Assembly: GCF_003932505.1 (NCBI RefSeq)
Contig: NZ_QZMU01000001.1
Coordinates: 1,612,001 to 1,676,000, forward strand
Direction of reading: 5' to 3'
Length of the DNA: 64,000 bases
DNA from: Thiohalobacter thiocyanaticus
GTDB taxonomy: Bacteria > Pseudomonadota > Gammaproteobacteria > Thiohalobacterales > Thiohalobacteraceae
Positions 53,577-58,474 of the stretch are shown in pieces (positions within the stretch are counted from its first letter, which is position 1; each line of letters begins with the position of its first letter). The translations under genes and the position numbers were made by a program. A model generated the notes under the pieces. The model had not been told where the DNA came from and ran no database searches. It was given only the letters and a program-made list of their open reading frames with translations.

Positions 53577-55941
53577 TCAATGCACGGCGGGCCTGCGGCG
53601 CCCGGCCATGAACAGCCCCAGCAAACCACTGCCGAACAGCCACACGGCGGCAGGCACCGGGACGGCACTCACCACGGTCAGATCGACCCAGCCGTCGCCA
53701 TAGAAAATATCGAAGGTCTTGCCGTCGAATACCGGGAAGAACAGGCTGTCGAACTCACCGATCACAGCACTTGCATACAGGATATCGAAGGTCATGCCTT
53801 CATCGGCTGAAAAGGCCTCACCCAGCGTGATCACCAGATCGCCACCCAGCCCGGCACTGCCATAGACATTCAACAGATCGTCGAAATCACCCTGTCCTGT
53901 CCCGAGCTCCAGATGCAGGCGTCCGCCCGTATCCTGATGCAGATTGCCGTAGACATCGAGCATTGCACCCGTATCGGTGGACGCCCCCACATACATGTTC
54001 CCGTGATTGAATATATCGGCCTCAATGAGGCCCTCGGCCCGGAAGGTACCCCCGGTGCGGATATCAACCTGGTTGGCGTAGAGGTATGCGTTGTTCCGCA
54101 CGATCAGCTCACCCCGCCCTGCCTGTTCCGGGTGCGCTTCATCCAGGATATCGCCACCGACCTGGACATCACCGCCTACGAACGCTGCATCCCGACCGGA
54201 GATATCCATCAAACCCACCGTATCCTGATGCACCCCGATACGTGTCGTGAGCGTATCCAGACTCCCGCCGGTCAGCCTGTACTCACCCCTGCCTCCATCA
54301 CTGGCGGCGATCGTCAACTGATTCGTGGCATGCTGCCCCCCCGACTGGGTGAAACGACCCTGGCCAGCGCCGCCGACGACTGTATTCTGTGTATGCAGAA
54401 CACTCCAAACAGAAAAGCTCCCTGACAGTATGTACTCACCTCGGCTGCCCGCCATCACACCCAGGGTGAGCGTTTCGCTGATCTGGTGCTCTCCCTGGCT
54501 GTGGCGATAGACACCCTGCCCGGCCACGCCGACCTGCAGCCCCGAGTCGCTCCAGTTATCCACATCGCCCCGGCGCTGCTCGAAGGTGCCGTGGCTGCCG
54601 GCGTCCCGGCCCAGCACCAGCCGGCGCGAGCCCGTCAGTTGCAGCACGAGATCATAGCTATCAGACGACTGGTCCATCACAAAGACGCCGGTCCCGGCCG
54701 CACCGATCACCAGTTCATCGAAATCCAGCCACCCGCTGTTCCATTCATAGCGGCCGTAGCTGCCGGCCTGATGGCCCACCATCAGCTCCCAGGCAAGCAC
54801 ATCACCATTCTGGTGATGGTATGCACCGTTGCTCCCGGCTTCACTGCCGACCAGCAGGCGATCAGTGGAATGGTGTCCACCGCTCTGGCTGAACATACCC
54901 TGGCCGGCACCGCCGACGACTGTTTCCCCTGTATGCAGATCGCTCCAGCCGGTATCGCTCCCGGACAGTATGTATTCACCCCGGCCACCCGTCTGCACGC
55001 CAAGGGTCAGGGTTTCAGTGATCCAGTGGGCGCCGTAGCTGTGGCGGTAGACGCCCTGCCCGGCCACGCCGACCTGCAGCCCCGAGTCGCTCCAGTTATC
55101 CACATCGCCCTGGTGCTGCTCGAAGGTGCCATGGCTGCCGGCATCCCGGCCCACAACGAGGCGGCGTGAGCCATTCAGTTCCAGCGCTGGATAGTAACCG
55201 TCAGGCGCCTTGTCCATCACAAAGACACCGGTCCCGCCCGCACCGACCACCAGCCCATCGAAGTCCAGCAGCCCGCCGGTCCAGTCATAGCGGCCGTAGC
55301 TGCCGGTCTGATGGCCTACCATCAACTCCCAGGCAACACACGTCACCATTCTGGTGACGGTATGTACCGTTGCTGCCGGCTTCACTGCCGACCAGCAGAC
55401 GATCAGTCGAATGGTGTCCACCGCTCTGACTGAACAAACCCTGGCCGGCGCCGCCGACAACTGTTTCCCAGGTACGCAGATCGCTCCAGCCGGTGTCGCT
55501 CTCGGACAGTATGTATTCACCCCGGCTGCCTGACTGTTGGCCAAGTGTGAGGGCGTCCATGACATGGAGCTCTCCGCCCGTGTGGCGATAGCTGGCGGCG
55601 CCCGCTACGCCGACATCCACCCGATCGGCGAATAGAACATTGCCGGATTGCTCGAGCGTAATGGCACCGCTACCGATGGCATCGATATACAGCGCGCCGA
55701 TGGACGGCAGATAGCTGCCGGTGTCCATTACCCTTATGGTGCGATTGACCGAATCGGCCTGTGTCAGATACACGTTGTCCCAGTTCGGAATCCCGTAGGG
55801 GTCCCAGTTGCCGGGGTCTGTCCAGGCCCCATCATTGCCGATCCAGTATTTGTCCGCAGCCTGGGCGGCCATGGAAGGTGAGAGGCTCAGAACTGCCAGT
55901 ATGAAAACGATATGACTGCCAAGGTGCCGGGATGAGTGCAC
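53577..55941 (-). pseudogene. Exported tandem-repeat beta-rich protein with VPxPA-type C-terminal sorting signal; one frameshift
   Basis: Joined across a one-base shift at about 55336-55342, this is a 787-residue exported protein. It starts with a signal peptide (about 1-28, ending MAAQAADKYW). The middle holds 540-bp (180-residue) tandem repeats rich in VGxxAGSxGxY and TVVGGAGQG motifs, suggesting a beta-helix like autotransporter passengers. The end VPVPAAVWLFGSGLLGLFMA followed by GRRR is a PEP-CTERM-like (VPxPA) sorting tag for an exosortase system; none is in the window. As sequenced the N-terminal piece (55941-55285) terminates early. Confidence 0.8.
54361..55441. repeat. 540-bp tandem repeats inside the exported protein gene
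   Basis: Matching landmarks recur at 54361, 54901 and 55442 (TGGCCRGCRCCGCCGACRA) and at 54541 and 55081 (CCCGAGTCGCTCC). Spacing is 540 bases within the copies and 541 across the frameshift, which directly shows the one-base insertion near 55340. Copies are diverged, so they are not a recent duplication. Confidence 0.85.
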
Positions 55942-56216: not shown

Positions 56217-57113
56217 TCATTTCGCTTCTTCAGCAAAACAGGCCGCCAGTCCCGCTTCCAGGTCCGGGTACTGCAGTTCCACCCCCAGTTCCTCGCGCAG
56301 GCGGCGGTTGTCCAGCCGCTTGGACTCATTCATGAAGGCCTGCATGCCCCGGCTGAGTTTCTCGGGCGCCTCGGCCCGCGTGACGGTGGGCGGCGGCGGC
56401 AACCCGGCCGCTTTTGCGATACATGCAAAGTAGTCGGCCATGGTGCTGGGATGGCCATCGGCGACGTTGTAGGCAGCGCCCGGTTCGCCCCTTTCCATGG
56501 CAGCGCAGCAGGCGCTGATCAGATCGTCCACCTGGATGCGGTTGGTGTAGGGACAATCTTCCTCACGCAGGATGGGCAGGCCCTGGCGGATGCGTTCCAG
56601 TGGCAGCTTGCCGGGGCCGTAGATCCCGGGCACGCGCAGGATCACCACCGCGACACCGGTCTGCTCCGACCAGGCCTGCAGGGCCTGCTCGGCGGCCAGG
56701 CGCCGGCGGCCGCGCGGGGTGCCCGGGTTGAGCGGAAAGGACTCGTCGATCCAGTCGCCGCCGCTGTCGCCGTACACGCCGCTGGTGCTGATGTAGACGA
56801 TGCGGCGCGGCAGGTTGCCCGGCTGCAGTTGCTCCAGCACCCGCGCCAGGCGCGGATCGCCATCGCCTTCCGGCGGGGGCGGGGCGAAGTAGTACAGCTC
56901 ACGGCCGGCCGCGGGCAGCGCACCCGCCGGCAGCGCCTGATCCAGGTCGAGCTGCAGGGGCGCGATGTCCACCCCCCGCAATGCAGCCGCACTCGCGTCG
57001 CTGCGCACCAGGCCTGTGACCGGAACATCCCCCGTCCGCAACTGCCGGCCCAGGCGCCGGCCGACATAGCCGCAGCCGACGACTAGTACTCTTTCAAGGT
57101 GATATTGACGCAT
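56217..57113 (-). CDS. NAD(P)-dependent epimerase/SDR family protein (YeeZ-like)
   Basis: 298 residues, extended short-chain dehydrogenase fold. The nucleotide-binding VGCGYVGRRLGRQL is at 11-24, YISTSGVYGDSGGDWIDES holds the Ser/Tyr-type site, and VILRVPGIYGPGKLPLERI follows, as in YeeZ and related NAD-dependent epimerases. Substrate is unknown. Its first nine codons (MRQYHLERV) lie in the left arm of a 262-bp inverted element whose right arm repeats them on the opposite strand. Confidence 0.85.
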   Translation of the reverse strand: MRQYHLERVLVVGCGYVGRRLGRQLRTGDVPVTGLVRSDASAAALRGVDIAPLQLDLDQALPAGALPAAGRELYYFAPPPPEGDGDPRLARVLEQLQPGNLPRRIVYISTSGVYGDSGGDWIDESFPLNPGTPRGRRRLAAEQALQAWSEQTGVAVVILRVPGIYGPGKLPLERIRQGLPILREEDCPYTNRIQVDDLISACCAAMERGEPGAAYNVADGHPSTMADYFACIAKAAGLPPPPTVTRAEAPEKLSRGMQAFMNESKRLDNRRLREELGVELQYPDLEAGLAACFAEEAK

Positions 57114-57347
57114 TCAGTTGGCCTGTCAGCATTCCTGGCAAGGCGCGGCTCGCAGCGAATGGCGAGCCCTTTGCAAGAGCAGCAACACAGACAGGGATGC
57201 TGACAGGCCAACCCGGAGGGCGCCCCTGTGGTGTCCCGCCACTGCGTTGCGCCGCTTGACAAGGACCGAGCCATTGCCTGCACGACGCGCCTTGCGGCGA
57301 AACACCACAGGAGCGCTGAATGCGTCAATATCACCTTGAAAGAGTAC
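57086..57347. repeat. 262-bp structured inverted-repeat element between divergent genes
   Basis: Perfect 32-bp terminal inverted repeats (57086-57117 and 57316-57347) enclose two further hairpins: one with 15-bp perfect arms TTGGCCTGTCAGCAT (57118-57132) and 57197-57211, and one with 15-bp arms (one mismatch) at 57220-57234 and 57302-57316. The left terminal arm includes the epimerase start codon. This occupies nearly all of the 314-base gap 57114-57427, where no other gene is seen. Confidence 0.9.
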
Positions 57348-57427
57348 AAGCACAGGAACCATCGGTTTATCTCCCACGGGAAATGGGCGACAATCGCCGC
57401 CTTTGTTTGAGTTGCGTCCAGGATTAC

Positions 57428-58474
57428 ATGGCATATCAGGTCAAGATCGAACCCAGCGGCCACACATTTTCTGTGGAAGCCGGCGAGTCCGTGCTCGAAG
57501 CGGCCCTGCGCCAGGGCATCGAACTGCCCTATGGCTGCCGCGGCGGCAGCTGCGGCAGCTGCCGGGGCCGGGTAATCAGTGGTTCGGTGAGCTACCCCAG
57601 CGATGTCCTGCCGCCCGCGCTCGAGCCGGAACAGGCCGCCGCCGGCGAGGCGCTGTTCTGCCAGGCCATGCCGCAGGAGGATCTCGGCATCGAGGTACAG
57701 GAACTGATCACGCCGGCCCAGATCGAGGTCAAGAACATGCCGGCGCGGGTCGCCGAGATGCAGCGGCTCTGCCACGATGTCTACCTGCTGAGGCTGAAGC
57801 TGCCGACCACCGAGCGGCTGCAGTTCTTTGCCGGCCAGTATATCGAGATCCTGCTCAAGGACGGCCGCCGGCGCGCCTTCTCCATCGCCAATGCCCCGCA
57901 TGACGACGACTACATCGACCTGCACATCCGGCTGGTCGAGGGCGGCGAGTTCACCCAGTATGTATTCAACGAGATGCAGCCGAAGGCCATCCTGCGCATC
58001 GAGGGCCCCTTCGGCCAGTTCTACCTGCGCGAGGACTCGCCGCGGCCGATCCTGATGATGGCCGGCGGCACCGGCTACGCCCCGCTCAAGGGCATGCTGG
58101 AACACGCCTTCCACATCGGCATCACCCGGCCGATCCACCTGTTCTGGGGAGCGCGTTCGCGGCGCGATCTCTATGCCCATGACACGATCAGCCGCTGGGC
58201 GCGCGAACATGGGAACCTCCAGTACACGCCGGTGCTGTCGGAGCCGCTGGCCGAGGATACCTGGGACGGGAGGACCGGCCTGGTACTGGGCGCACTGCTC
58301 GAGCGTTACCCCGAACCGGCCGGCCATGACATCTACATGAGCGGCCCACCGGCCATGGTCGAGGCCGGTCGCAAGAGCTTCCTCGGCCGCGGCGTGCCGC
58401 AGGAACAGATGTTCGCCGATGCCTTCGAATTCGCCGCCGACACCCGGGACAAGGCCGCCCAGGGCGGCGGGTGA
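57428..58474 (+). CDS. 2Fe-2S ferredoxin-linked NAD(P)H oxidoreductase (CDP-6-deoxy-delta-3,4-glucoseen reductase-like)
   Basis: 348 residues. An N-terminal plant-type ferredoxin domain (1-90) has cluster ligands Cys37, Cys42, Cys45 and Cys78 (CRGGSCGSC). It is followed by an FAD-binding domain with RRAFSIANAP (RxxS motif) and an NAD-binding domain with MAGGTGYAPLKGML and the C-terminal SGPPAMVEAG. Such proteins pass electrons from NAD(P)H to a partner oxygenase or radical enzyme. Gammaproteobacterial members often sit near ubiD, here 3.9 kb away. The in-frame start at 57320 would add 36 atypical residues and is rejected. Confidence 0.9.
   Translation: MAYQVKIEPSGHTFSVEAGESVLEAALRQGIELPYGCRGGSCGSCRGRVISGSVSYPSDVLPPALEPEQAAAGEALFCQAMPQEDLGIEVQELITPAQIEVKNMPARVAEMQRLCHDVYLLRLKLPTTERLQFFAGQYIEILLKDGRRRAFSIANAPHDDDYIDLHIRLVEGGEFTQYVFNEMQPKAILRIEGPFGQFYLREDSPRPILMMAGGTGYAPLKGMLEHAFHIGITRPIHLFWGARSRRDLYAHDTISRWAREHGNLQYTPVLSEPLAEDTWDGRTGLVLGALLERYPEPAGHDIYMSGPPAMVEAGRKSFLGRGVPQEQMFADAFEFAADTRDKAAQGGG

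Follow-up and report, generated by a model that had tools for sequence, protein, structure and literature searches.

Within the 64,000-nucleotide stretch of DNA analysed here (the window), the genes for an NAD-dependent epimerase and a ferredoxin reductase are divergent, and a 262-bp inverted-repeat unit lies at the start of the epimerase gene. The features of the locus, in window coordinates and with the evidence for each in brackets, are as follows.

56217..57113, minus strand: epimerase open reading frame, 298 aa, with its first nine codons from the left arm (open reading frame, domain search, relatives)
57084..57085, no strand: left copy of the putative TA target duplication, target YTAG (sequence against the empty site)
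57086..57347, no strand: the 262-bp element, very probably an IS630-type MITE, target duplication left out (sequence, copies, empty site in genomes L205 and L206)
57086..57117, plus strand: left terminal inverted repeat, with IS630-like ends; its minus strand holds the new epimerase ATG and MRQYHLERV (sequence)
57118..57211, plus strand: hairpin A, conserved module on the minus strand (fold and family comparison)
57126..57362, minus strand: 78-aa leader from the native epimerase ATG (57362) through the element to a TGA (comparison with relatives)
57139..57188, minus strand: conserved module within hairpin A (covariance model R1 match, 53.5 bits)
57212..57220, no strand: linker CCCGGAGGG joining hairpins A and B (sequence)
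57221..57315, plus strand: hairpin B, conserved module on the plus strand (fold and family comparison)
57244..57294, plus strand: conserved module within hairpin B (covariance model R1 match, 67.6 bits)
57316..57347, minus strand: right terminal inverted repeat, the perfect complement of the left arm (sequence)
57348..57349, no strand: right copy of the putative target duplication, now AA, a single change from TA (sequence against the empty site)
57428..58474, plus strand: 2Fe-2S/FAD/NAD ferredoxin reductase from its native start (open reading frame, domain search, relatives)

The anatomy given by an earlier, sequence-only reading of the locus was confirmed: the perfect 32-bp inverted repeat, the two hairpins and ATGCGTCAATATCACCTTGAAAGAGTAC on both strands are all present. 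In the sequence, the internal hairpins extended over 57117-57212 and 57220-57316. The expected number of occurrences of the arm's 26-bp core in shuffles of the window was 0.00, and the folding energy of the unit as a single strand was -95.8 kcal/mol, compared with -47.4 kcal/mol in shuffles (z = -13.1). The 262 bp contain no transposase gene, and the open reading frames inside them are chance ones only.

Two genomes of the same genus (L205 and L206) carry the empty site, GATTAGCACAGG. The uninterrupted junction between the same gene pair in the relatives reads GCCCGCGATTAGCACAGGAACCATCGG, and that of the window reads GCCGACGACTA[GTACTC...GAGTAC]AAGCACAGGAACCATCGG. Since both of these genomes have the empty site, 57086-57347 represents an insertion into YTAG. 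The window copy is flanked by TA and AA, as compared with TTAG in the empty site, and the simplest reading of these junctions is that the insertion duplicated the TA and that the right TA has since mutated to AA. For six further copies in the same genome, the orthologous site is uninterrupted in one or both relatives, with junctions at these six other sites too diverged to prove target duplication. The ends of the element are generally TA-G...C-TA, often inside CTAG, and many copies have C-TA...TA-G on both sides. A target site without duplication (CT|AG) was also considered, and fits the subfamilies less consistently than TA duplication.

The insertion split the epimerase gene after codon 4. 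The element (262 bp) and the 2-bp duplication together add 264 bp, and thus the epimerase reading frame is kept. On the minus strand, the left arm encodes ATG-CGT-CAA-TAT-CAC-CTT-GAA-AGA-GTA, and the open reading frame from 57113 reads MRQYHLERV-LVVGCGYVG, in which nine codons are arm-derived. The epimerase in the relatives begins with MVPVLIAGCGYVG or MNPVLIVGCGYVG, not MRQYHLERV, and its start is preceded by a TGGAGATAAACCG-like ribosome-binding site. The native ATG at 57362 and the upstream TGGGAGATAAACCG are intact in the window, now beyond the element. Two in-frame TGA codons lie near the new ATG, one 13 nt upstream, which ends the leader, and the other immediately before the ATG. The epimerase now probably starts within the arm at 57113. 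The native promoter and ribosome-binding site, across the element, would drive the 78-codon leader, and because this leader stops 13 nt upstream of the new ATG, re-initiation is the likely route by which the epimerase would be translated.

On the other side, the right-arm ATG at 57320 (plus strand) is in frame with the reductase open reading frame ending at 58474 and lies 108 nucleotides (57428 - 57320) before the ATG at 57428. The latter is common to the same-genus relatives, in which the frame upstream of it contains stops in one and has no ATG in the other. Since the relatives share the ATG at 57428 without a usable upstream frame, the right-arm ATG is probably accidental and the reductase appears to have kept its native start. 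The earlier claim that two divergent genes have the same first nine codons is thus correct for the open reading frames and probably incorrect for the proteins. Elsewhere in the window, the minus strand of 53577-55941 encodes a protein that is rich in repeats, ends in a PEP-CTERM-like tail (VPVPAAVWLFGSGLLGLF) and matches no Pfam family; the open reading frames 55285-55941 and 53577-55565 overlap there in different frames and resemble one frameshifted gene.

Elements of the IS630 family target TA and duplicate it (PMC2170065), and the same paper, citing Tenzen and Ohtsubo 1991, gives CTAG as the preferred target of IS630. The arms were compared with the ends of autonomous elements. An IS630 on a Streptomyces plasmid has the ends CTAGTGTCCTGAGTCGGAGATT in the layout CTA|GTGTCCTGAGTCGGAGATT...|TAG, nearly identical to copy L116; a gammaproteobacterial IS630 (DDE_3 by Pfam) has perfect 33-bp ends, CTAGTACATCGACCAGTTTATATTGACGGATAG; and further autonomous IS630-family ends include CTAGTAGTCCTTCAATAAGATAAATTAGGAT and CTAGTGGTCCATGCGGTTAATTAGGTAATG. 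IS630 ends matched the element arms in register above shuffled controls (Fisher p = 5e-13, a nominal value that treats the ends as independent). By direct comparison, copy L302 of the same genome, with the ends CTAGTGGTCCATGCGGGAAGTTCGGTAATGC, shares 24 of 28 positions with the IS630 L267 (CTAGTGGTCCATGCGGTTAATTAGGTAATGC). The resemblance to autonomous IS630 ends holds at the family level, and no autonomous element with exactly the arms of the window copy was found among the IS630 elements searched; for the Azotobacter IS630 copies, the TA-end search gave no matching ends.

We are highly confident in reading the unit as a MITE whose terminal inverted repeats are of the IS630 type, inserted in YTAG and probably the source of the new epimerase start. 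Mobilisation by an IS630 transposase is strongly inferred: supplied in trans, the enzyme would excise the element, paste it into YTAG and duplicate the TA. No DDE_3 transposase was found in the element's own genome (assembly 92% complete), and the window copy may therefore no longer move. The IS630-Tc1-mariner elements (IS630, ISY100) resemble the element in their inverted-repeat ends, CTAG target and TA duplication (PMC2170065). In contrast, the element has no transposase gene, and its conserved double-hairpin core is missing from the autonomous IS630 copies examined, which makes an origin by simple internal deletion inadequate.

The 3.3-Mb genome in which the element lies has another copy with 89% identity, further ones with 75-81% and partial copies. 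A covariance model of the core (51 positions) gave 31 matches in this genome and detected the core in 35 genomes of a phylum-wide sample of 299, some of them outside the class. The search for further copies in the genome and relatives, which the sequence-only reading had proposed as a check, was thus positive, and the many copies in one genome, together with the empty site in two same-genus genomes, substantiate its suggestion of a mobile non-autonomous element. To catalogue the family, the hairpin B motif was matched exactly against 84,980 genomes; the pattern fixes part of the module, so that conservation of hairpin B at those bases is biased, and hairpin A was not selected in this way. Among the matches listed, the hosts are mostly Gammaproteobacteria and some former Betaproteobacteria, and include Stutzerimonas, Azotobacter, Pseudomonas, Comamonas, Sedimenticola, Thioalkalivibrio, Microbulbifer and many MAGs. 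The usual length is 260-290 bp; hairpin A is missing in some (L044, L061, L074), and others have an extra nested hairpin (L066, L077). The copies occupy unrelated contexts, and the same arms recur at unrelated loci. A blastn search of plasmids with a Stutzerimonas copy detected full-length relatives, none of them autonomous, on Azotobacter, Pseudomonas aeruginosa and Halomonas plasmids, and the same search with the window copy gave short non-specific matches only. No description of the family was found in Rfam or in the mostly open-access literature searched, and an earlier description is possible; the family is apparently both widespread and undescribed. At 2122779 of the element's own genome, an IS3-like transposase gene is apparently inserted in a copy of the TACTAATGAG subfamily (L178).

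Every well-preserved copy has the same fold, consisting of a terminal stem and hairpins with a module in opposite orientations. The module in each hairpin is GCGTT-[7-8 bp stem]-TTG-[second stem]-TGC/GGC-[stem]-GCCTTG, carried by hairpin A on the opposite strand; since the modules lie on opposite strands, the element consists of two half-units in inverted arrangement. Across 53 distinct modules, standard pairs occupied 93.6% of the pair cells and two-sided changes occurred in 93 cells, compared with a shuffle mean of 33 (score 0.338 vs 0.111). Sliding the pairing partners abolished this covariation signal. The stem mismatches on the module strand were A.C over G.T, by 29 to 4 in the inner stem and 30 to 7 in the outer stem (distinct stem contexts, used for the outer stem since raw counts partly reflect conserved positions). 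An A.C bias on the module strand means G.T wobbles on its complement, the strand that is read inward from each end. The bias is suggestive of selection on the folded single strand, although shared ancestry may inflate it, and it is absent from the terminal arms (37 G.T vs 41 A.C).

These results bear on an alternative, that the hairpins function as a structured RNA or single-stranded DNA element (a processing, stability or regulatory signal) for which the terminal repeats are merely a mobile carrier. The strong covariation of the module, and the mismatch bias that places G.T on the strand read inward, argue for this. On the other hand, the Rfam (Rfam 15) covariance models gave no family matching the element, the arms lack the bias, the bias in the module is open to inflation by shared ancestry, and the copies lie in unrelated contexts. 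We regard this alternative as possible, though somewhat doubtful.

Returning to the reading of the unit as an IS630-type MITE, we compared the arms among copies. They are near-perfect inside each copy and strongly different between copies and subfamilies, even in a single genome: in that of the window, at least seven kinds of ends occur on like cores (beginning GTACTC, GTGGTCCTTC, GTGGTCCATGCGG, GTGTCCTGTCA, GTACCATG, CTAATGAG, CTAAGAC, TTAACCCG). Between L001 and L002, 6 positions of the arms differ, each of them altered on both arms; L016 and the L031 copy (also read as L179) differ at 17 and L100 and L108 at 9, with 0 one-sided differences in either pair, and the interiors of the latter are 92% similar. 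L020 and L031 have a common inner arm half and different outer halves. The very high arm differences with L122 and the unpaired counts of L127, L060 and L004 were excluded as possible register-shift artefacts, and the symmetry of the arms makes forward and reverse labels in this comparison uninformative on orientation. Since the differences are two-sided, independent point mutation is insufficient; an exchange of the paired ends as a unit, or the copying of one arm from the other, would be needed. Between copies, the two arms would be swapped together, with arm correction or selection for pairing acting afterwards. The previous argument that perfect arms imply a recent origin is not needed, since near-perfect arms are the rule in the family despite the large differences between copies. 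L010, L020 and L179, copies with different ends, have an identical insertion of about 24 bp (GGCGCCTACTGTTGGTGCC) in their hairpins, which again hints at exchange between copies.

The usual view of MITEs is that each derives from one transposon by deletion and has fixed ends. What is surprising here is a conserved structured core with interchangeable ends, rather than the nine shared codons. One covarying core with many IS630-like ends, even in a single genome, points to end exchange and selection on the core, whose role becomes testable. We tentatively propose, as one possibility, a phylum-wide IS630 satellite, in which a core selected for its RNA or single-stranded DNA fold repeatedly adopts the terminal repeats of different IS630 transposases, with the ends swapped pairwise. 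The window copy also shows cleanly how the end of a transposon can come to provide a host gene with its start codon and N-terminus.

Other MITEs that combine TA duplications with stable folds have been described, among them ERIC/RU, Correia/NEMIS and RUP (PMC10969869 and PMC2759123). ERIC, RU-1 and RU-2 are, like the element, small and structured, with TA ends and TA duplications, and fuse with reading frames, N-termini included; they are set apart by their reported size (127 and 168 bp for the ERIC/RU repeats, vs about 265 bp), and the passages of PMC2759123 consulted do not mention end exchange on a conserved core. The Correia/NEMIS elements of Neisseria are similarly short, are bounded by terminal inverted repeats and fold stably as transcripts, and promoters, inversion and RNase III processing have been reported for them (PMC10969869); they differ, by description only, in host and in the reported length of 204 bp. 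The R0 and R2 repeats of Pseudomonas fluorescens are MITE-like, with the same inverted repeats as resident insertion sequences (PMC2718517), but are 89 and 110 bp long and form two fixed-end families, in contrast to one core with many ends.

The inversion reported for Correia elements (review PMC10969869) is also a point in favour of an invertible switch, in which recombination between the arms flips the interior and alters the expression of both flanking genes. The long, perfect arms would suit such a switch, as would the MAG HyVt-541, where the element occurs in both orientations inside the same larger repeat. However, the arms in HyVt-541 differ at 8-9 paired positions, which makes simple inversion inadequate there, and no promoter-like site was found in 57050-57450. 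No orientation variant is known for this locus; inversion of the window copy in situ is unsupported, and we consider the switch improbable. The larger repeat in HyVt-541 (L100, L108, L111, L139) is palindromic, with arms GTAGCTGTTCAGCCCGGCGAGG, and nests the element at one site; both orientations occur there, and the inner arms differ.

Still less probable is a single-strand (HUH/Y1, REP-like) element cut beside CT, with ends AGTG...CACT and no target duplication. The strong single-strand fold agrees with it, and CT...AG flanks also fit cutting after CT, but the arms match the ends of IS630, the preference for CT/AG is symmetrical, and the ACTAATG/ACTAAG subfamilies lack the CT flank and yet are consistent with TA duplication. 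Finally, an inverted duplication of the epimerase 5' end, proposed earlier for a 5' gene region in general, would account for nine identical codons on both strands but is practically untenable: the arms are transposon ends that also occur at unrelated loci, and the same-genus relatives have the empty site and their own first epimerase codons.

Several features were observed around copy L008 (1556305 in the same genome as the window). An rpoD-like gene has its stop codon at this copy; the end of the gene reads AACAGCTGA in the relatives and AACAGTTAG in this genome, the TAG arising at the L008 boundary. Near 1556650 there is a different repeat, about 40 bp long (GTCATTGCGAGGCCCAGAGGGCCGTGGCAATCTCC), dispersed in dozens of copies through all three genomes of the genus. 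A full-length group I intron (Rfam, 63.3 bits; L008 1460-1698, about 1556764-1557002 in the genome) lies about 200 bp downstream of copy L008, immediately preceded by the apparent 5' half of a tRNA gene ending in ...GGGGACTCAT, where ARAGORN reports no tRNA.
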